Shown here: positions 49,244 to 60,482 of the stretch, one piece after another
How the letters are laid out: every line of letters begins with the position of its first letter
Numbering within the stretch: the first letter of the stretch is position 1
DNA from: Synechococcus sp. C9
GTDB taxonomy: Bacteria > Cyanobacteriota > Cyanobacteriia > Gloeomargaritales > Gloeomargaritaceae
Assembly (NCBI RefSeq): GCF_022984075.1
Contig: NZ_JALAAD010000001.1
Coordinates: 2,398,455 to 2,462,454 of the forward strand
DNA length: 64,000 nt
Direction: 5' to 3'
Notes under the pieces: model-generated
Database searches by the model: none
Told to the model about the DNA's origin: nothing
The model's input: only the letters and a program-made list of their open reading frames with translations
Translations under genes and position numbers: made by a program

Positions 49244-50047
49244 TTAATCCGTAAGGGCTTGCCCCACGATCAGGGTACGGGTTTGCCCCGCCCGGGTCAG
49301 CACCACTTCCTGTTCCCGCACTTCCTTGACCTGCCAACCGCTCTGCCCCACCTGACCGCCCACATTGACCTGCTGGGTGGTGTCCCCAACCTGGAACATG
49401 GCGATGGAACCGGCTCCCATTTGCAATAACCCGATCAGGGTCAGGGTCGGACGGGGGGATGGTTTCGCCACAGGGGCGGTGGGCTGAGCGGGGAGACTGG
49501 CGGGGGCAGTGATCACCGGAGCCTGGGGAATGGGCATGACCGTCACCGGGGGCGGCGGGGGTACGGCAGGAGGCTCCGGGGGTTTAGGGTTGGTGGCTGG
49601 GGAAGGCTGGGGCGTACTACGCTCGGGAATCCGGGCTAACGCTCGCTCCAAATAAGTAACAAACTCCTGATGCGGTGGTTCGGCGGGGGCAGGGGTGCGT
49701 GCCGCTTGCCAATACTGTCGCCCGTACCAGGTGCCCAACATCACCAGGGTGCCCAAGCCCAGCCATACCCACCAGGGGGTCGGTCGCTCCGCTGGAGTAT
49801 CCACAAACGCCGCCGTTAAAATCGTCTCCGGGTGGTAGGGCGGTTGACGAACTGGCATCAACGGGGCGGGGTTGTACGCCAAAACCACCATTGCCCCTGG
49901 CTCGGGGACGGATCGTACTAGGGCTAAGGGCTGACCGGCAGGGGGGAGACACCGGGAGGGCAGGGGTTCCTCCAGGCGGCTAAAAACATCGTCCAACAGG
50001 GCTTCTACCTCAGCTTCCAGTTGGGGTTCGGGCAGGCAATGGCTCAT
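49244..50047 (-). CDS. Single-pass membrane protein with proline-rich linker
   Basis: 267 residues. Cytoplasmic part ~1-90, membrane helix [18 protein letters not shown] near 95, a long Pro/Ala-rich linker (~120-200), and a small C-terminal beta domain: [38 protein letters not shown]. The end resembles the PulC/PilP-like domain of secretion or pilus proteins (a homology domain with repeated strands). Starts in ATGA overlap with the mnmG stop, so it follows mnmG in one operon. Confidence 0.65.
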
Positions 50048-51930
50048 GCGGACATCCGGTGGTGAAGTTCGAGATAAATGAGCAAGGCTTGAATATCTGC
50101 GGGATTGACACCGCCAATGCGGGCGGCTTGACCAAGGGTTAAGGGGCGAACGTGGGTTAATTTTTCCCGTGCTTCCATTGATAGCGTAGTAATGCGATTG
50201 TAGTCAATATCCGGGGGCAACCGCCGCTGGGCATATTTCTGCGCCTGCTCGATCTGCTGGTTTTGGCGTTGTAAATACCCCGCATATTTCAAACGAATTT
50301 CCACACTTTCCCACACGGAACGCTCTAAATCCGGGGCACCCAACCCCCAATTCACCAAATGCTCGTAGTGCAACCCCGGACGGGTGAGCAATTCCGCCAA
50401 GGTCACGGCGGTTCGCACCGGCTCCCCCATCGCCTGCAATTCCGCCACCACCGGGTCATGGGGTTTGATCCGCACCTGGCGCAACCGCTCCTGTTCGGCG
50501 GCAATCTGCTGTTGTTTCTCCTGGTACAGTTGCCAGCGCCGGTCATCAATCAAGCCAATGTCCCGCCCCAAGGGGGTCAGCCGCTCATCCGCATTGTCCG
50601 AACGCAAATGCAGGCGGTATTCCGAACGGGACGTGAGCATTCGGTAGGGTTCCCGCAAATCCCGGGTACATAGGTCGTCAATCAGGGTGCCAAGGTAACT
50701 TTGCTCCCGGGGAAAAATAATTAGTTCTTTTTGCGCCACAAAGCGAGCCGCATTGATCCCCGCCACGATTCCCTGCGCCGCCGCCTCTTCATACCCCGTT
50801 GTCCCATTGATCTGCCCCGCACAAAATAGCCCTTGAATTTTTTTGGTCATCAAGGTTGGCTGGCATTGGGTCGCAGGCAGGTAATCGTATTCCACCGCAT
50901 AGGCAGGGCGCAACATGACGCACTGTTCCAACCCCGGCAAGGTTCGCAGTAACGCCAGTTGTAATGCTTCCGGCAAGCCCGTCGAAAAGCCCTGCACATA
51001 CAGTTCCGGGATGTCCCGCCCCTCCGGTTCCAGGAAAATTTGGTGGGACTCCTTATCGGCAAACCGGACGATTTTATCCTCAATGCTGGGGCAATAACGG
51101 GGGCCTTTGGCATCCACCCAACCCCCATACACGGGCGAGAGATGCAAATGTTCCCGAATCAGACGGTGGGTTTCGCTGGTCGTGCGGGTGAGATAGCAGG
51201 GCAATTGCTCCCGTTCCTGCCACACCTGGGGGTCAAAACTAAACCACCGCACCACCTCATCCCCCGGTTGCGGCTCCAAATGGGTCGTATCCACCGTGCG
51301 TCTATCCACCCGGGCGGGGGTTCCCGTTTTCAAACGCCCCACCTCAAACCCCAAGCGTTGCAGGTTGGCGGTCAACCCCTCGGCGGCAAATTCCCCAGCC
51401 CGTCCCGCAGACATAGACTGATTCCCCACCCAAATCCGCCCACCCAGGAACGTCCCGGTCGTGAGGATCACCGCCTGAGCGGCAAAATTCACCCCGAAAT
51501 AGGTACGCACACCAATGACTTCATCATGCCGCCCTAGGAGTAAATCCGTCACCATGCCTTCCCGCACCCACAAATTGGGCTGGTTCTCCACCACTTGGCG
51601 CATCACACGGGCATACTCCCGTTTATCCGTTTGCGCCCGCAACGCCCACACCGCCGGTCCCCGGGAATGGTTCAGCAGACGCTTTTGCAGATAGGTGCGG
51701 TCGGTCATTTTGCCAATTTCGCCCCCCAGGGCATCCACCTCATGCACCAACTGGGATTTGGCGGGTCCCCCCACCGCCGGATTACAGGGTTGCCAAGCAA
51801 TGCGGTCTAAATTCAAAGTCAACAGCAGGGTGCGACAGCCCAACCGGGCGGATGCCAACGCCGCTTCACAGCCCGCATGACCGGCTCCCACCACAATTAC
51901 ATCAAAGGTGTCGAGAAAATCGGGCATCAT
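50044..51930 (-). CDS. mnmG: tRNA uridine 5-carboxymethylaminomethyl modification enzyme MnmG
   Basis: 628 residues from ATG; a second ATG follows immediately. FAD site: [21 protein letters not shown]. The GidA signatures [34 protein letters not shown], and the C-terminal helical region [20 protein letters not shown] are present. With MnmE it modifies U34 of several tRNAs. Full length. Confidence 0.97.
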
Positions 51931-52134
51931 CAATTAACTCAGGGGCAACTATTCATTATTTTTAGCATAGACAGGTTGGGAGTGCAGGAACACAACCAAT
52001 GATGGGCACAATAGAGGGGTTCAAAATCCGATTTGTAAAAAGTTCATTTCAGTCTCAGGTTATGGAATTTCCCAAGTGATCAAGGTTTCCAATAATTGAC
52101 AACCTTTAATTAGTAAGTATGCTTTACTCTACTT

Positions 52135-52358: not shown

Positions 52359-52566
52359 TCGGTTGCAACAGCACTACAGCCTGTTCACAAATTAAAGGAT
52401 ACAAAGAATCCTATTTCCAAGGTTTAGTTCCTTAGAGCCGGTAGGTTTACCGCCCTATCCCGTAACCACTTAAAAGGCTGTATATTTCCCGGGCACCTCC
52501 ATAAATTCAAAGTTAGCGGTCGCAGGGGGCACCCCCGCCCTTGGTTCTGGGTAATATGGGTATGCC

Positions 52567-53653
52567 CAGTAGTGTTGAATGTTAACGAAAGGGTGGAAAA
52601 GGGAGACTAAAAATGGTATTTTAGATTGGTAGAAACCACGAGTAACAGTATTTTTATGAGACGACAAATTCAGGGACTTATCAAGCCCTTGCTGAACCTT
52701 CTTCCCAAAAACGACTATCCAGTCTTGGATACTCGCTTGTTTGTACTCATATGGATGCACTTCATTTTAGATGCAAGAGTCGCCACCATGCGGGGCTTAT
52801 TCTTCCTCTTGAATCATCTCAATTTTAAAGTTGACATATCAACGTTTTCTAAGGCGTGTAAACATCGTAGCACCGAGCCGTTTCAAGTGATCCTAAGAGA
52901 ACTGCAAAAACGGCTTAAACATCATCAAGGTGAATTTAAGCACTTATTCCCATTAGATTCTACCATTATCACCCTGACCAGCAAATTATTCTGGCACTAC
53001 AAGCAGGTAAAATTGACGCTTGGCCTGGATATAAATGAGGGCAATATCGGTGACGAATCAATTATATTTGGAAAGACTAATGACCATAAAATTGGGCATC
53101 TTGTGATTGGGACGATACCTGAGAATGCCGTTGGTATCATGGATAGGGGTTTTGCTTCCTGGAAATTAATGGACGAAATGTGTAAACGAAATACATTGTT
53201 TATTGTGCGGATTAGAAATAATATGAAGTTGCAACCTGACAATCCGGATATTCGGGTAATTCAATTTTTTAATGAAGAGGAAAACACAGAATATAGGCTA
53301 GCGACTAACGTGACTTCGATGACGGATGAAGAGATTTGTTCAGCCTATCGTTTGCGCTGGCGAATTGAGTTGCTTTGGAAGGCACTAAAGATGCACTTGA
53401 AATTGGATAGAATCATTACCAAGAATGAGAATGGTGTGCGGCTACAGATTTATGCCGTATTGATTGGTTATCTAATTTTAAGATTGCTGGAGATAGGTCA
53501 CAATAAGACCTATGAATTGATTGACAAGTTGCGATATTTACAAATAGAAATAGGCCGACACTGTAGCTTCATGGAACTCGTAGGGGTAGAGCCGCTCGTA
53601 GGATAACCCTGACCCCTTATGTTAAGTTTTATTACGGACATTCAACACTACTG
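52567..53653 (+). mobile_element. IS4-family insertion sequence, copy 2 (1,087 bp)
   Basis: Same length and inverted ends (CAGTAGTGTTGAATGT) as copy 1, but in the opposite orientation. Flanking direct repeat GGGTATGCC at 52558-52566 and 53654-53662 is perfect. With copy 1 it frames a ~49-kb segment between inverted identical sequences. Confidence 0.95.
52626..53606 (+). CDS. IS4-family DDE transposase, copy 2
   Basis: 326 residues, identical to copy 1: FPLDSTII, GIMDRGFAS and YRLRWRIELLWKALK. The frame opens at TTG with a GGGAG-like site about 13 nt before; an ATG lies ten codons in. A tiny ATG GTA TTT TAG frame directly upstream overlaps the leader and could limit translation, as is common in transposases; this is speculative. 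Confidence 0.93.
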   Translation: MVETTSNSIFMRRQIQGLIKPLLNLLPKNDYPVLDTRLFVLIWMHFILDARVATMRGLFFLLNHLNFKVDISTFSKACKHRSTEPFQVILRELQKRLKHHQGEFKHLFPLDSTIITLTSKLFWHYKQVKLTLGLDINEGNIGDESIIFGKTNDHKIGHLVIGTIPENAVGIMDRGFASWKLMDEMCKRNTLFIVRIRNNMKLQPDNPDIRVIQFFNEEENTEYRLATNVTSMTDEEICSAYRLRWRIELLWKALKMHLKLDRIITKNENGVRLQIYAVLIGYLILRLLEIGHNKTYELIDKLRYLQIEIGRHCSFMELVGVEPLVG

Positions 53654-53807
53654 GGGTATGCCAACGAATTGGTTCAAATAAATAGAGGTGACCTGATTAG
53701 AAAAAATTATCCCCTTAAATCCAGGAGAGACCATTTTCTGTAATACTTATATCCACATCAATCCCTAGCGAATATACTAGAGTTAATGATTTTGGGAGGA
53801 ACCCCTG

Positions 53808-54092
53808 ATGGCGCCACGGTGGACCGATGAAATGTTAGATAAAATGGCGGAGGAAAACGCCCATGCCTTTCGAGAATTGCGGGAAGCCATCAGTCGCCTC
53901 GAAACCCAAGTTTCTGCCAATACCCAAGCCATTGCCGCCAATAATCAAGCGATTCATGAACTGCGGGAGGGTCAGGCAATGATGATGCAAATTATCATGC
54001 AACAACAGACCAACATCGAGGAATTACGCCAAGATACCCGCCGGATTTTGGATGCCCTCATCAACCCCCCGCCCATGAACGGACATCGCTAA
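53808..54092 (+). CDS. Small coiled-coil protein, tandem copy 1
   Basis: 94 residues: MAPRWTDEMLDKMAEENAHA, then helical FRELREAISRLETQVSANTQ with heptads, a Met-rich GQAMMMQIIMQQQTNIEE, and RRILDALINPPPMNGHR. A GGGAGGA site stands 7-8 nt before the ATG. The protein probably forms a helical oligomer. Copies 2 and 3 follow in direct repeat, each with the same ~60-nt leader. No family known to me. Confidence 0.6.
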   Translation: MAPRWTDEMLDKMAEENAHAFRELREAISRLETQVSANTQAIAANNQAIHELREGQAMMMQIIMQQQTNIEELRQDTRRILDALINPPPMNGHR

Positions 54093-54157
54093 TTCTGATG
54101 AGGAAATTTAAAATTTTTTGGGAGTAAACATATTCCCATCAATCCCTATCAAATACA

Positions 54158-54280
54158 CTAGAGCAATCCTAAATGAGAATGGAACAGGGGTCGCAGGGGC
54201 ACCGCCCCCGTTTTGGTTCTGAAAAATTTTTGTATGCCTACGGCACGCAAGCTAATCCAAATCAAGTAGGATTGCTATAG
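54158..54280 (+). repeat. Long-form type-A core repeat inserted in the copy-2 leader
   Basis: Left end GAGCAATCCTAAATGAG, right end AAGTAGGATTGCTATAG, and the GCCTACGGCACGCAAGC insert of the long form. In copies 1 and 3 the leader reads ACTAGAGTTAATGATTTTGG without interruption. In copy 2 it is split after ACTAGAG and resumes as GATTAATAATTTTGG. Co-oriented with copy 1 upstream. Confidence 0.88.
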
Positions 54281-54307
54281 GATTAATAATTTTGGGAGGA
54301 ACCCCCG

Positions 54308-54592
54308 ATGGCGCCACGGTGGACTGATGAAATGTTAGATAAAATGGCGGAGGAAAACGCCCATGCCTTTCGAGAATTGCGGGAAGCCATCAGTCGCCTG
54401 GAAACCCAAGTTTCTGCTAATACCCAAGCCATTGCCGCCAATAATCAAGCGATTCATGAACTGCGGGAGGGTCAGGCGATGATGATGCAAATTATCATGC
54501 AACAACAGACCAACATCGAGGAATTACGCCAAGATACCCGCCGGATTTTGGATGCCCTGATCAACCCCCCACCCATGAACGGACATCGTTAA
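54308..54592 (+). CDS. Small coiled-coil protein, tandem copy 2
   Basis: 94 residues, identical in protein to copy 1 and nearly so in DNA, so duplication or gene conversion is recent. Same GGGAGGA ribosome site. Its leader carries the A-type repeat about 28 nt before the start, between the putative -10 and the ribosome site, which may alter its expression. Confidence 0.6.
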   Translation: MAPRWTDEMLDKMAEENAHAFRELREAISRLETQVSANTQAIAANNQAIHELREGQAMMMQIIMQQQTNIEELRQDTRRILDALINPPPMNGHR

Positions 54593-54687
54593 TTCTGATG
54601 GGGGAATTTAACATTTTTGGGAGTAAATATATCCACATCAATCTCTATCGAATACACTAGAGTTAATGATTTTGGGAGGAACCCCCG

Positions 54688-54951
54688 ATGGCGCAACGGT
54701 GGACCGATGAAATGTTAGATAAAATGGCGGAGGAAAACGCCCATGCCTTTCGAGAATTGCGGGAAGCCATCAGTCGCCTCGAAACCCAAGTTTCTGCCAA
54801 TACCCAAGCGATTCATGAACTGCGGGAGGGGCAGGCGATGATGATGCAAATTATCATGCAACAACAGACCAACATCGAGGAATTGCGCCAAGATACCCGC
54901 CGGATTTTGGATGACCTGATCAACCCCCCACCCATGAACGGACATCGCTAA
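54688..54951 (+). CDS. Small coiled-coil protein, tandem copy 3
   Basis: 87 residues. Differs from copies 1 and 2 by an in-frame deletion of seven residues (AIAANNQ, one heptad-length unit of the helix), a Gln for Pro at position 3 and an Asp for Ala near ILDDLIN. The leader is uninterrupted. The heptad-sized deletion keeps the coiled-coil phase. Confidence 0.6.
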   Translation: MAQRWTDEMLDKMAEENAHAFRELREAISRLETQVSANTQAIHELREGQAMMMQIIMQQQTNIEELRQDTRRILDDLINPPPMNGHR

Positions 54952-55058
54952 TTCGTTAATTCAATGGTGCCAAGCTACATTAAAATTACCCTAATATAAG
55001 GGCACTCCCGCCATCACCTGTCCAGTGGCATTATAAAATAAAAAATAAAGCGGTCATT

Positions 55059-55667
55059 ATGGTGTTCCCTGTGGATTCCCCCCTGATTGTCGTCATTGAT
55101 AACTACGACAGCTTTACCTACAATTTGGTGCAGTATTTGGCGGCGTTGGGGGCAGAGGTGAAGGTCTTTCGTAATGACCACATCACCATCCCCGAAATCC
55201 AGACACTCCAACCCGATGGCTTGGTGATTTCCCCTGGTCCAGGTCGCCCGGAAGACGCGGGGATTTCCCTGGCGTTGATTGCGGAAATCGGGAGTACTGT
55301 CCCCCTGTTGGGAGTCTGTTTGGGACATCAAAGTATCGGTCAGGTTTTTGGGGGTAAAATTGTGTCTGCCCCTACCCTGATGCACGGCAAAACTTCGGAA
55401 ATTTATCACCAGGGCATTGGGGTTTTTCAAGGTCTGCCCATGCCCTTTACTGCCACCCGTTATCATAGCCTGGTGATTGACAAAAATTCCTGCCCCGAGG
55501 TGCTGGAAATCACCGCTTGGACAGAGGATGGAACCATCATGGGGGTCAGACATCGGCAGTATCCCCACCTGCAAGGGGTGCAGTTTCATCCCGAAAGTAT
55601 TTTGACTGCTGTGGGACCAGCACTGTTAAGGAATTTCTTAAGCAGTATTCCCCCACGCCAGGGGTAA
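55059..55667 (+). CDS. trpG: Anthranilate/aminodeoxychorismate synthase glutaminase
   Basis: 202 residues. Class I glutaminase triad: C87 in LLGVCLGHQSIG, His and Glu in VQFHPESILT. The start IVVIDNYDSFTYNLVQYL and ISPGPGRPEDAG are typical of TrpG/PabA. It supplies ammonia to TrpE or PabB, for tryptophan or folate. Partner genes are not adjacent. Confidence 0.93.
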   Translation: MVFPVDSPLIVVIDNYDSFTYNLVQYLAALGAEVKVFRNDHITIPEIQTLQPDGLVISPGPGRPEDAGISLALIAEIGSTVPLLGVCLGHQSIGQVFGGKIVSAPTLMHGKTSEIYHQGIGVFQGLPMPFTATRYHSLVIDKNSCPEVLEITAWTEDGTIMGVRHRQYPHLQGVQFHPESILTAVGPALLRNFLSSIPPRQG

Positions 55668-55697
55668 AATATACCTAGAAGCCTGTGAGGTTCATCT

Positions 55698-55904
55698 ATG
55701 CAGATTTGGGTAAATGAACAACTTGACCCCGGCGGTTTGGTTCACGCTTGCCTAGCAACCTGTGATGAAACGGTCGCCCGTCAATGCCACGTTAATTTTG
55801 AAAACAACCTCACCCCAGAACAGCGTGCCCAGGGGTGGCAAGCCCGTCTGCGAGCGGTGGAATCCTGGGATCAGGTGCCCGTGACCGCCCTCAAACTGAG
55901 TTAA
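55698..55904 (+). CDS. Small conserved protein of unknown function
   Basis: 68 residues, soluble: MQIWVNEQLDPGGLVHACLA, TCDETVARQCHVNFENN, then AQGWQARLRAVESWDQVPV. Three cysteines. The sequence looks like a conserved cyanobacterial small protein, but I cannot name it. It lies 30 nt after trpG and 40 nt before the Zur-like gene, in the same direction. Confidence 0.5.
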   Translation: MQIWVNEQLDPGGLVHACLATCDETVARQCHVNFENNLTPEQRAQGWQARLRAVESWDQVPVTALKLS

Positions 55905-55944
55905 AATCATAGAACAAATTGGGGGTTTACTACCTGGTTTTGCG

Positions 55945-56334
55945 ATGGCGACCGTCCCGTTAACGCCCAGCCAACAGCGTATCCTCAAACTTTTGCAGGG
56001 ACAATCCCAGGCACTCTCTGCCCAAGCGATTTATTTGCGCCTCAAGCAACAACAGCAAGGGGTGGGGCTAGCAACGGTGTACCGGGCGTTGGAAGTGTTG
56101 AAAAAAACCGGGGCGATCCAAGCCCGACTCCTCCCCAGCGGCGAAGCGGTGTACAGCGGTTTACCGGACGACCGGCACCATCTCACCTGCCTGCGGTGTA
56201 ACTCCTCGATTCCCCTAGAAGACTGCCCGGTGCAAGACCTGGAACAGCACCTGCGGCTGGCACACAAGTTTCAAGTGTACTACCACACCCTGGAATTTTT
56301 TGGGCTTTGCCAGAACTGCCAAGACCCCGCCTAA
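55945..56334 (+). CDS. Fur-family regulator, Zur-like
   Basis: 129 residues. Winged helix ([38 protein letters not shown]). Both structural zinc pairs are present: C82-C85 (TCLRC) and C122-C125 (LCQNC), with DRHHL in the regulatory site. This full set suggests a zinc-uptake regulator (Zur) rather than PerR. Its last 4 nt overlap the stop of convergent chlB. Confidence 0.8.
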
Positions 56335-57857
56335 GCACCCACCGCTTCCTTGGCGGCATACATAACTTCGACGCTGATGGTGGTCAACCCCTGTTCCCGG
56401 GCGAATTTTTCCGTATTGCGTTTGACTTTTCCCCGCACAAAACCGGGCACTTTGTTCAACTCCTTTTGTGCCTCCGGTGTCCAGGACAAATCCGTAGCCG
56501 CCGAAAGGGTTTTGGTAATCACTTCCTTGGTATCGTGACCGCCGAAAATTTCCAACAGGTGGTCTTCCATCCCCAATGTAAAGGAGTTGTACACCAAATC
56601 GGCAATTTGATTGGTGCCTTCGTAACCGAGAAACGGGCGGTACCCCAAGGGGAAATTTTGGATATGCACCGGGGCGGAAATCACCCCACAGGGAATGTGC
56701 AGGCGTTTCCCCACATGGCGTTCCATCTGGGTGCCAAAGATCGCCGCTGGTTCCGCCTGGGCAATGGCATCCCCAATCCGGGTGTGGTCATCGGTAATGA
56801 TTACGTCATCACAATAGGGGGATACCTGCGCCCGGAACCAATCCCCATCATAGGTGCAATAGGTGCCCGCCCAAACCACATGGATGCCCATTTCCCTAGC
56901 TAAAATTTGGGTCATGGCGGCGGCGTGGGTATTGTCCCCAAAAACGACCGCTTTTTTACCCGTCAAATTTTGGCAATCAATCGAACGGGAAAACCAAGCC
57001 GCCTGGGAAACAAACCGGGTTTGCTCATCAATATAGGATTCATAATTTACCGCCTGTCCTTGGGTATTTAAGACCTGTTGAATTTCTCGAATACATTGCG
57101 CCGTTGCCATCACTCCCATTGGCGTTGTCTGTACCATAGGCAGACCAAATTCCGCTTGCAGATATTGGGCAGAAAGCAAGCCAATTTCTCGGTAGGGGAC
57201 GAGATTAAACCAGGCTTGGGGGAGCAGGGCAATTTGGTCAACGGTAGCTCCCTCCGGCAGAACCACATTCACTTGAATCCCCAGTTCGCCCATTAATTTT
57301 TTTAATTCTTTTAGGTCGTGTTGGTTGTGAAATCCCAGGGTCGTTATTCCCAGGATATTCACCGAAGGTTGGGCGGTTTTTTGGGTATTTAATGTGCCTT
57401 TTTTTGCCGCTTTTTGCAGATAAAAACGAATGATTTGTTCAAGGGTGCGGTCGGCGGCTTGGAGTTCATTCACCCGGTAATGGTTCACATCCGCCAAAAG
57501 TACATCACAGCGGGTTTGTTCCGTCGCCCGTTCCACAAAATTCTGCAAATCCTCCTGCAAAATACTGGAGGTACAGGTGGGGGTGACCACGATCAAATCG
57601 GGATGTTCCTCCGCATCCTTGCGGGTGATATTGTCCACCACCTTTTCCTGGGAACCCTGCGCCAGCACATGGCGGTCCACAATGCTCGCCGTGACGGGGG
57701 TAAAATGGCGCTCCCGCTCCAGCATCGAACGCATGACATTGAAATAATCATCCCCCAAGGGGGCGTGCATGATGGCGTGTACCCGGCGAAAGGAACTCGC
57801 CACCCGGAGCGTACCAATGTGGGCGGGTCCAGCATACATCCAATAGGCTAATTTCAT
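56331..57857 (-). CDS. chlB: Light-independent protochlorophyllide reductase subunit B
   Basis: 508 residues, the typical length. D36 in APLGDDYF is the unusual aspartate ligand of the [4Fe-4S] cluster shared with ChlN. Other marks: [41 protein letters not shown] and the C-terminal [11 protein letters not shown] domain. With ChlL and ChlN it makes chlorophyllide precursor in the dark. chlL and chlN are not in the window. Its stop overlaps the Zur-like gene tail by 4 nt. Confidence 0.98.
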
Positions 57858-57942
57858 GGGCGTTCCCCGCTATTTGGTGACTTTGTTCAGCTTAAAGGGA
57901 ACAGGTGACATCCACCGACAAGATGCAAGGATTTTTAATGTT

Positions 57943-58692
57943 TTATGCTTGTTGGGCAAACGCCAGTGCCACCTGGAGGTCAGCGGTCACCTGGGGGTAG
58001 TTCATCGCTGGACGTTGGATTAAATGCAGTCCCACCCCCAATTCCTGCGCCAATTGCTGTTTCACATCCTCGCCACCGGGACGACCGGAAGCCTTGGCAA
58101 TCACCTGGGTAATGCCCCAATGTTGCCAAATTGCCCGTTCTAAATCCCGACCCACCGGCGGCCAGAGGGCGATGATCTGTTGGGGTAAAAAACCCGTTTC
58201 TAAGGCGGTCGCTAAGGCAATTTGATCCGGGATAATCCGCACAAACCAAGTATGTTCCTCCCAAAAGTTTTTCAGAATAGGTAATTGCCGATAGCCCAGG
58301 GTGACTAAAATCCGCTCTTGATGAAATTTAGCTTGGGTCAAGAGTTCGGTTAAATTCGCCCAGGTATAACAACCAGAATCATTAGTAACTAGAGCGGGAC
58401 GTTCATAGCGGAGATAGGGCAAATCGTATTGCTGAGAACATTGAATCGCTAGTTGGGAAATTGCCGCCGCATGGGGATGGGAAACATCCAGGATTTTACT
58501 AATGTGATAATGCTGGATAAAAGCGCCGATATTCTCCAGCGTCAAACGGGTCACCAATACGGGGCAGGGGGTGTGGGCGTAAAGCTGTTTTGCCCGTGCT
58601 GTGGTTACGGTAATGACGCAATTGGGATGCTCCCCTAATGCGGTTGCCAATTGGGCGCTTTCTTGGGTGCCGCCGATCAACCACAGGGTCAC
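57943..58692 (-). CDS. cobK: Cobalt-precorrin-6A reductase
   Basis: 249 residues from GTG. Start choice: a longer ATG-initiated frame exists 54 nt upstream inside the previous gene, but this GTG overlaps the previous TGA as GTGA and gives MTLWLIGGTQESAQLATAL, the expected CobK N-terminus (LxLGGTxEA). Other motifs: DVSHPHAAAIS, LRYERPAL and VTLGYRQLP. It reduces precorrin-6A in cobalamin synthesis. Last gene of a three-gene operon with the peptidase and DUF4340 genes. Confidence 0.88.
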   Translation of the reverse strand: MTLWLIGGTQESAQLATALGEHPNCVITVTTARAKQLYAHTPCPVLVTRLTLENIGAFIQHYHISKILDVSHPHAAAISQLAIQCSQQYDLPYLRYERPALVTNDSGCYTWANLTELLTQAKFHQERILVTLGYRQLPILKNFWEEHTWFVRIIPDQIALATALETGFLPQQIIALWPPVGRDLERAIWQHWGITQVIAKASGRPGGEDVKQQLAQELGVGLHLIQRPAMNYPQVTADLQVALAFAQQA

Positions 58693-59285
58693 GGTTTGGG
58701 GGATGGACTCGCTTTCGGGGTCGGCTTTTGGGCTGGGGCTTGCCATTCCTGCAATTCCCGATTCACCGCATTTTGTAAATCAATCGGCACCAGGGCAATT
58801 TGTCTGGTAGTTCCCTCAGCGGGTGGGTCAATTTCGGCGTACAATGCCGTGCCACTAAAATCCGTATTTCCCAAGATTAAACGGTGATTGTTGCCATTTT
58901 CTAAGGTGACTTGAATGGTGGCACTGGGCACGGCTAAACCAAATTTCGCCTGATCCTGTACCGGAATCGTGATGTCCTTGTCCTGCACCCGTTCTACATT
59001 GGTCAATTGCCCTAATAAAAATGCAATCGGGGCATCATTGGCTGGTTTTTTTTGCGGGGCGACCATGCGCCATTCCCCCACCTTGACCCGTTCAAATTTC
59101 AACGTTTCCTTCGGCTTGGTAATGGTAATGGCTGTGACCTCTTTTTCCGTAAAATTAAATAATTTCGCTTGTTTTGTTTGCTTGGCTTCCTGCTGGGGTT
59201 TGCCCACGAATTCCCAATAGCTGACCCCCCCTGCCAAACCAATTGCCAGACCGAGAATGATCAATGTACTTGGGGCAAGTTTCAT
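58689..59285 (-). CDS. DUF4340 domain protein
   Basis: 198 residues with an N-terminal membrane helix (LIILGLAIGLAGGVSYWEF). The rest matches DUF4340: LFNFTEKEVTAITITKPKE, GEWRMVAPQKKPANDAPIAF, LGNTDFSGTALYAEI, read in parts, and a Lys/Pro-rich tail. DUF4340 proteins are often linked to ABC-type or gliding machineries; here the function is unknown. The cobK start overlaps its stop by 4 nt; the M20 gene lies 3 nt away downstream in the order of reading on the minus strand, upstream of it. Confidence 0.8.
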   Translation of the reverse strand: MKLAPSTLIILGLAIGLAGGVSYWEFVGKPQQEAKQTKQAKLFNFTEKEVTAITITKPKETLKFERVKVGEWRMVAPQKKPANDAPIAFLLGQLTNVERVQDKDITIPVQDQAKFGLAVPSATIQVTLENGNNHRLILGNTDFSGTALYAEIDPPAEGTTRQIALVPIDLQNAVNRELQEWQAPAQKPTPKASPSPKP

Positions 59286-59288
59286 GGT

Positions 59289-60482
59289 TTAACGACCGTA
59301 TTGTTCCAAACAGCGGATAAATAATTCTACCCCCAAACTGAGTACCGCTTCATCAAAATCAAACCGGGGATGGTGGTGGGGAAAATCCAACCCTTTGCTG
59401 GGATTCGCCGACCCCAAAAAGAAATAGCACCCCGGCACTTCCTGGAGAAAAAAGCTCATGTCCTCGCCCCCCAGGGTTTGACAATCGGGCAGAACGCCCA
59501 ATCCCGGTTCCACCACCTGTTGCGCCACGGTACGCACCAATTCGGTCATGGCTGGGTCATTCACCAAGGGCGGGTAAAGGTATTCGTAATCCCAGCGGTA
59601 GGTGGCACCATAGGCGTGACAAATTCCCTGGATGATGCTCTCCAGCTTTTGGGGGATCACCTTGGCTAAATCTGGGTTGAAGTAGCGCACCGTCCCCCCC
59701 AGGGTCGCCTGGTCGGCAATGACATTCCGGGCATGACCGCTGTGGAATTCCCCCACCGTCACCACCGCCGGTTCCAGGGGGCTGATTTGCCGGGCCACCA
59801 CACTTTGCAGAGCCACCACCACCTGCGCCGCCACCACCAGGGCATCCACGGTCTGTTGGGGTTTAGCGCCATGCCCCCCCCGTCCCTGAATCTGGCACCG
59901 AAAAAAGTCAGAAGCGGCCATCAACGGCCCGGAGCGCACCCCCACCGACCCCGCAGGCAGGTCATTCCACAGGTGCAGACCAAACATGGCTTCCACCCGG
60001 GGATTTTCCAACACCCCCGCCTCGATCATCGGTTTCGCACCGCCAGGCCCTTCCTCCGCCGGTTGAAAGATGAGCTTCACCGTGCCCCGCAGGTGTTCCC
60101 GGTGGTGAGCCAGATAATGCGCCACCCCCAGCAAAATCGCCGTATGTCCGTCATGGCCGCAGGCGTGCATCACCCCATCAATCTGGGAACGGTAGGGCAC
60201 CGTGTTTAATTCCTGAATGGGCAGGGCATCCATATCCGCCCGCAGTCCCATCACCGGCCCTGGTCTCGACCCAGAAATCACCGCCACTACCCCGGTTTGG
60301 GCAATACCCGTCTGCGGTTGATACCCCCATTGGCGGAGCAATTCCACCACCCGTGCCGCCGTTTCCACCTCCCGAAACCCCAATTCCGGGCGTTGGTGCA
60401 ATGTCCTGCGCCATTGGACAAGCTGGGGTTGCAGAGCCTGAATCGCAGGGCGAATGGGGATCGACGAGGTCGCCAGGGTCAA
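59289..60482 (-). CDS. M20D-family amidohydrolase (hippurate/indole-acetyl-amino acid hydrolase-like)
   Basis: 397 residues from a TTG preceded by GGAGG and AGGA; a TTG seven codons upstream also fits but lacks a ribosome site. M20D features: LHQRPELGFRE, VMGLRADMDALPI, ACGHDGHTAILLG, FQPAEEGPGGAKPMI with the catalytic Glu, and GGEDMSFFLQEVPG. It hydrolyses N-acyl amino acids or related amides using two metals. It heads the operon with the DUF4340 gene and cobK, spaced by 3 nt. Confidence 0.92.
   Translation of the reverse strand: MTLATSSIPIRPAIQALQPQLVQWRRTLHQRPELGFREVETAARVVELLRQWGYQPQTGIAQTGVVAVISGSRPGPVMGLRADMDALPIQELNTVPYRSQIDGVMHACGHDGHTAILLGVAHYLAHHREHLRGTVKLIFQPAEEGPGGAKPMIEAGVLENPRVEAMFGLHLWNDLPAGSVGVRSGPLMAASDFFRCQIQGRGGHGAKPQQTVDALVVAAQVVVALQSVVARQISPLEPAVVTVGEFHSGHARNVIADQATLGGTVRYFNPDLAKVIPQKLESIIQGICHAYGATYRWDYEYLYPPLVNDPAMTELVRTVAQQVVEPGLGVLPDCQTLGGEDMSFFLQEVPGCYFFLGSANPSKGLDFPHHHPRFDFDEAVLSLGVELFIRCLEQYGR

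Follow-up and report, generated by a model that had tools for sequence, protein, structure and literature searches.

Three small genes stand in direct tandem on the + strand of the window, the whole 64,000-nucleotide stretch of Synechococcus sp. C9 DNA analysed here (Table 1). They form a three-copy direct-repeat family with spacings of 500 and 380, and all three leaders end in TTTTGGGAGGAACCCC. Open reading frames and repeat family thus bear out the earlier note, which described three direct copies of a small coiled-coil gene with a common leader and ribosome site, copies 1 and 2 having the same 94-residue translation. Its statement that copy 3 lacks seven residues holds as a one-heptad step; the substitutions P3Q and A-to-D had gone unmentioned. 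Counted over ungapped columns, copy 3 differs from copy 1 at 7 of 261 nucleotides and from copy 2 at 8 of 261. Tandem copies this alike are known to mislead genome assembly, but these differ from one another at 7–8 sites each (copies 1 and 2 at 7 of 282 ungapped columns), and two single-contig genomes, the related VI4D9 (G002) and a third species, G004, contain the array as well; an artefact of assembly is therefore of negligible probability.

Table 1. Features of the coiled-coil gene array and its upstream flank (window coordinates).
Feature	Position	Strand	Description and basis
Second MITE-like family copy upstream of copy 1	52491..53693		Interrupted by insertion sequence
Transposase of insertion sequence	52626..53606	+	DDE_Tnp_1, E 1.1e-21
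Copy 1 gene	53808..54092	+	Putative 94 aa soluble coiled-coil protein; ORF, heptad periodicity, hydropathy
MITE-like element in leader 2	54160..54279	+	Terminal inverted repeats, at least 50 genomic matches, hairpin + T-run 54196-54208
Copy 2 gene	54308..54592	+	94 aa, protein identical to copy 1; 7/282 nt differ
Spacer + copy 3 leader	54593..54687	+	93 nt gapless alignment with VI4D9 spacer
Copy 3 gene	54688..54951	+	87 aa, one heptad shorter; P3Q, A-to-D near C-terminus

The element in leader 2 is about 120 bp long, is absent from leaders 1 and 3, and carries the terminal repeats TATAGCAATCC...GGATTGCTATA. The genome holds at least 50 matches to it, some of them partial, with 40 out of 376 candidates having been scored. 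The element's inverted termini, its high copy number and a length too short for a transposase mark it as a MITE. In ends, size and fit to a TA target it resembles miniature inverted-repeat elements of a kind that we take to be IS630/Tc1-like. TA target duplication is indicated by one clear filled/empty pair in G004, where leader 2 contains a relative of the element in opposite orientation and leader 3 represents the empty site. A position between a -10 and the ribosome site of copy 2 only had been proposed for the repeat; the restriction to leader 2 stands, and the '-10' is unsupported, since a sigma-70-type promoter scan of 53600-55080 found no site on the + strand and a single site on the - strand (shuffle mean 3.3). 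The hexamer TACACT lies upstream of the leader 2 repeat. The hairpin inside the element is terminator-like; terminator-like sites in the region number three against a shuffle mean of 2.1, which is no excess. An Rfam search of the window returned tmRNA and tRNA only.

The insertion sequence upstream of copy 1 is bounded by inverted repeats at 52565-52582 and 53638-53655, and GGGTATGCC occurs at both of its flanks, as expected of a 9-bp target duplication. Better copies of the interrupted second MITE-like family end in GGGCACCTCTAT / ATAGAGGTGCCC. Further upstream, a gene at 50044-51933 on the - strand is presumably mnmG-like. Downstream of the array lies a glutamine amidotransferase gene (GATase match), which we take to be of the trpG/pabA type. 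Array neighbours differ in all three species (window, VI4D9, G004), so the context gives no function. The block 55042-60140 downstream of the window array is present in VI4D9 without an array in front of it, being preceded there by a gene that is presumably aconitase-like; the gene ahead of the VI4D9 array has its counterpart in the window's genome just past the window end. A search of five other genomes at E <= 1e-60 gave no match to the gene adjoining the G004 array, which is presumably MscS-like.

The encoded protein comprises a head RW[TN]DExLDxLA, a coiled coil and a tail ELREGQAMMM...NGH. Hydrophobic residues of copy 1 recur with a period of 3.55, and the power at 3.5 was reached by 3 of 2000 shuffles. 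A single-sequence AlphaFold2 model (one chain, no alignment) predicts one helix at residues 7-85 with a pLDDT of 94.2; heptad periodicity and continuous helix together mark a coiled coil. Foldseek of this model returned nothing at E <= 0.001, and the sequence had no significant match to solved structures (best E 0.16). Copy 1 has no membrane helix: its highest 19-residue hydropathy mean is 0.05, as against 2.07 in L108, a membrane-anchored protein with the same head. Copy 1 holds the pattern [IVL]xxN[TASN]xx[IVL] twice, against a mean of 0.054 and a maximum of 2 in shuffles; copy 3 holds it once and G004 copy 1 three times. Copy 1 of L028 has no Asn-at-d unit. In the excerpted text of one source, IxxNxxx/VxxNxxx heptads form Asn-at-d layers in trimeric stalks (PMC6839023). 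The window protein is like such stalks of trimeric autotransporter adhesins, as that excerpt describes them, in these heptads, and unlike those adhesins has neither a recognised adhesin head nor a membrane anchor. By analogy, the Asn-at-d units suggest a trimer.

Relatives are not confined to the window. Of 145 genomes sampled from the class, 17 have a member at E <= 1e-10, among them six of the seven of the genus, G003 of the same genus giving no match. A motif-based scan found 47 loci across cyanobacteria; the earlier note had known of no similar family. Ten matched stretches occur in the window's genome, namely the array triple, a second triple (98, 98 and 105 aa), three stretches within a 245-aa gene of the small contig C3, and one remnant. 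At L030 3865-3947 (-) a window-type gene remnant consists of the C-terminal 27 residues and adjoins a copy of the element. Outside Gloeomargaritaceae, at least 7 of 42 loci have more than one member. Sequence places the window genes in an unnamed cyanobacterial family, whose proteins change in length mostly by whole coiled-coil units. The window protein reaches no curated cut-off in Pfam or NCBIfam; the family, varying in length and recurring in arrays, offers a natural series for the tuning of coiled-coil length in evolution.

Best matches of the window protein to Pfam (E 0.0019) and NCBIfam (E 6.2e-4) fall below the cut-off, and that to PHROGs, a tail tape measure family, is weak (E 3.4e-4). 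The 245-aa relative did pass Pfam thresholds, with DUF16, Fib_alpha and other families, and had PHROGs matches down to E 9.2e-10; all of these we attribute to general resemblance among coiled coils. Among plasmid records the window protein was unmatched, and one relative matched two hypothetical proteins. By title or abstract start, open-licence papers held no literature on the family, 'ssr2422' occurring only in connection with common vetch. That name belongs to NF053525, 'ssr2422 family thylakoid membrane protein', to which two proteins of other cyanobacteria, L107 and L108, score 73.1 and 78.1 bits, over the cut-off of 38; both have an RWTDEMLD head, a coiled coil and a C-terminal membrane helix. 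Window copy 1, by contrast, is not listed at E <= 0.1 and is without a C-terminal membrane helix, and soluble relatives, where listed, score 17–23 bits. Assignment of the window protein to the ssr2422 thylakoid family was rejected on score and membrane helix. The window's genome contains 12 stretches matching NF053525 at E <= 0.001, none in the array, and seven membrane-helix proteins, read at six of nine retrieved places, are without the RWTDE head. Two of the 12 stretches sit in neighbouring genes (L160).

Head-to-tail distances in the family range from 22 to 190 residues. Modulo 7, the spacings of 28 distinct genus proteins sort into two classes, one of 21 and one of 7, the smaller of which is the window type. 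In other cyanobacteria 19 of 20 proteins share a single class. No probability is attached to these counts, because the sequences are related. Outside the window type, 40 of the 41 measured proteins keep the modulo-7 spacing of their group. The sole exception is off by 11 residues, a step known from coiled coils. Anchors were chosen by the analyst, one of them was loosened for the count (the stricter anchor covered 26 genus and 20 other proteins), and 28 head-bearing proteins with neither anchor remained uncounted. One heptad corresponds to about 1 nm. An array of another type, L035, has head-to-tail distances of 43, 50 and 57, in one-heptad steps; the array L039 is ungraded (50, 57, 22). In the first gene of L035, the hpsA-linked array of G004, one stretch reads N.

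A copy-number comparison across genomes, as the earlier note had proposed, found three copies also in VI4D9 and G004. Both have lengths of 101, 94 and 87 aa in the same order, the window having 94, 94 and 87. VI4D9 copy 2 (L031 4956-5240) has a stop at codon 5. On heads and tails, with the variable heptads left out, window copies 1 and 2 show 6 differences across roughly 50 synonymous sites (dS 0.13) and no amino-acid change. Window copies are separated among themselves by dS 0.11–0.13, from VI4D9 copies by 0.11–0.21; within-genome values are 0.02–0.06 in VI4D9 and 0–0.02 in G004. Between window or VI4D9 copies and those of G004, dS is 0.86–1.01, dN 0.054–0.066 and dN/dS 0.06–0.07. Purifying selection on the protein is strong. 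The G004 copies are 2–3 nt apart from one another and 39–50 nt from window or VI4D9 copies.

The spacer of copies 2 and 3 aligns between window and VI4D9 gapless over 93 nt, so at least one duplication junction is older than the species split. The G004 spacer has no significant likeness to that of the window or of VI4D9 (shuffles did as well in 315 and 71 cases of 1000); the G004 triplication may therefore be separate from that of window and VI4D9, and its identity with the window event was dropped on this test. In the tree, the window copies form a group with a support of 0.974 and the G004 copies one of 1.000; the VI4D9 copies are unresolved as one group. Grouping of the window copies is expected if copies exchange sequence, and such exchange is probably the cause of within-genome likeness.

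These data bear on the view of a recent triplication kept for dosage, the reading of the earlier note. The copies are close, group in the tree and have all three frames open in the window genome, but their divergence overlaps the distances to VI4D9, lying at the low end of that range, and the array and its spacer are shared. Dosage selection finds no direct support, and in VI4D9 the second frame is interrupted. The reading is largely refuted by the shared spacer and a shared element junction, and we consider it very unlikely. From copy dS within the VI4D9 range and the array and length ladder in relatives, all comparisons of sequence, the array is old, not a recent triplication. Before near-identical neighbouring genes are taken for recent, they are better compared with the genome of a relative.

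The junction in question is the left end of the leader 2 element, which is atypical and reads CTAGAGCAATCC. Among the loci compared, this left junction occurs only in window leader 2 and after VI4D9 copy 3; the right junction of window leader 2 is found again in front of VI4D9 copy 1. Contiguous alignments agree, pairing window 53749-54228 with L031 5277-5736 and window 54159-54954 with L031 4404-5243. As the atypical left junction is common to VI4D9, the insertion would predate the window/VI4D9 split, and the repeat is no marker of a recent event, the use to which it had been put. The simplest reading has the element inserting once, before the two species parted, and exchange later rearranging the VI4D9 array.

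Among relatives, five loci in five genomes of the genus (L029, L033, L035, L038, L040) have family genes directly upstream of a giant hpsA-like gene, with gaps of 286–350 nt. Two of the hpsA-like proteins score 202.6 and 267 bits against NF038301, below its cut-off of 400, and the other three were assigned by likeness to these two. A divergent G004 relative (L043 3983-4360) lies directly upstream of a same-strand gene that we take to be pilin-like, with three nearby genes that are presumably Uma2-like. Such neighbours would fit an accessory coiled coil of a type IV pilus or of an HpsA-type exopolysaccharide system. The window array, however, is not upstream of an hpsA-like gene, and likeness clustering, which is not an HpsA model, placed no hpsA-like cluster protein near it, near its VI4D9 and G004 counterparts, near the second array or near loci outside Gloeomargaritaceae; a role of this kind is quite improbable. 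A cluster 0 gene, presumably DUF29-like, is near family members in seven loci, including L033 3808-4281 and L096 6441-6920 (adjacent). Cluster 1 (NTPase-like) is likewise near the family in seven loci, nearest in L094 and L099. Both clusters stand mostly at varying distances from family genes and were not told from chance; remaining neighbour clusters reflect shared synteny or common ATPases.

The reading preferred here, with a probability of roughly 0.55, is that the window genes form an old tandem paralogue array for an oligomeric, perhaps trimeric, soluble spacer or adaptor protein. Each gene would encode a soluble rod in which a parallel coiled-coil stalk joins a conserved head to a conserved tail. 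The proteins would self-assemble as homo-oligomers, and the rods would keep head-bound and tail-bound partners a set distance apart. Stalk length would shift by whole heptads, plausibly via recombination between 21-bp units; purifying selection preserves the protein, and exchange between copies would keep those of one genome alike. Oligomeric state and spacer role are probable on the strength of the sequence and the single-chain model.

Heptad multiples could come from 21-bp repeat slippage alone. Copy number and stalk length would then be neutral by-products of recombination in a repeat- and MITE-rich genome, and all that counts would be to have one working copy or more. Copy number in the syntenic second array varies from 3 (L028) to 2 (L032) and 1 (L036), VI4D9 tolerates its interrupted copy 2, G003 is without the family, 21-bp units favour slippage, and the L039 lengths follow no grade. 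Yet window copies 1 and 2 retain the same protein despite their six synonymous differences, and the 101/94/87 ladder stands in the same order in VI4D9 and G004; neutrality is possible, and we lean away from it. Within the spacer reading, the graded rods of 101, 94 and 87 residues might be molecular rulers, kept graded by selection while exchange homogenises the rest. This we hold to be unlikely; the window array itself is one step short of the ladder.
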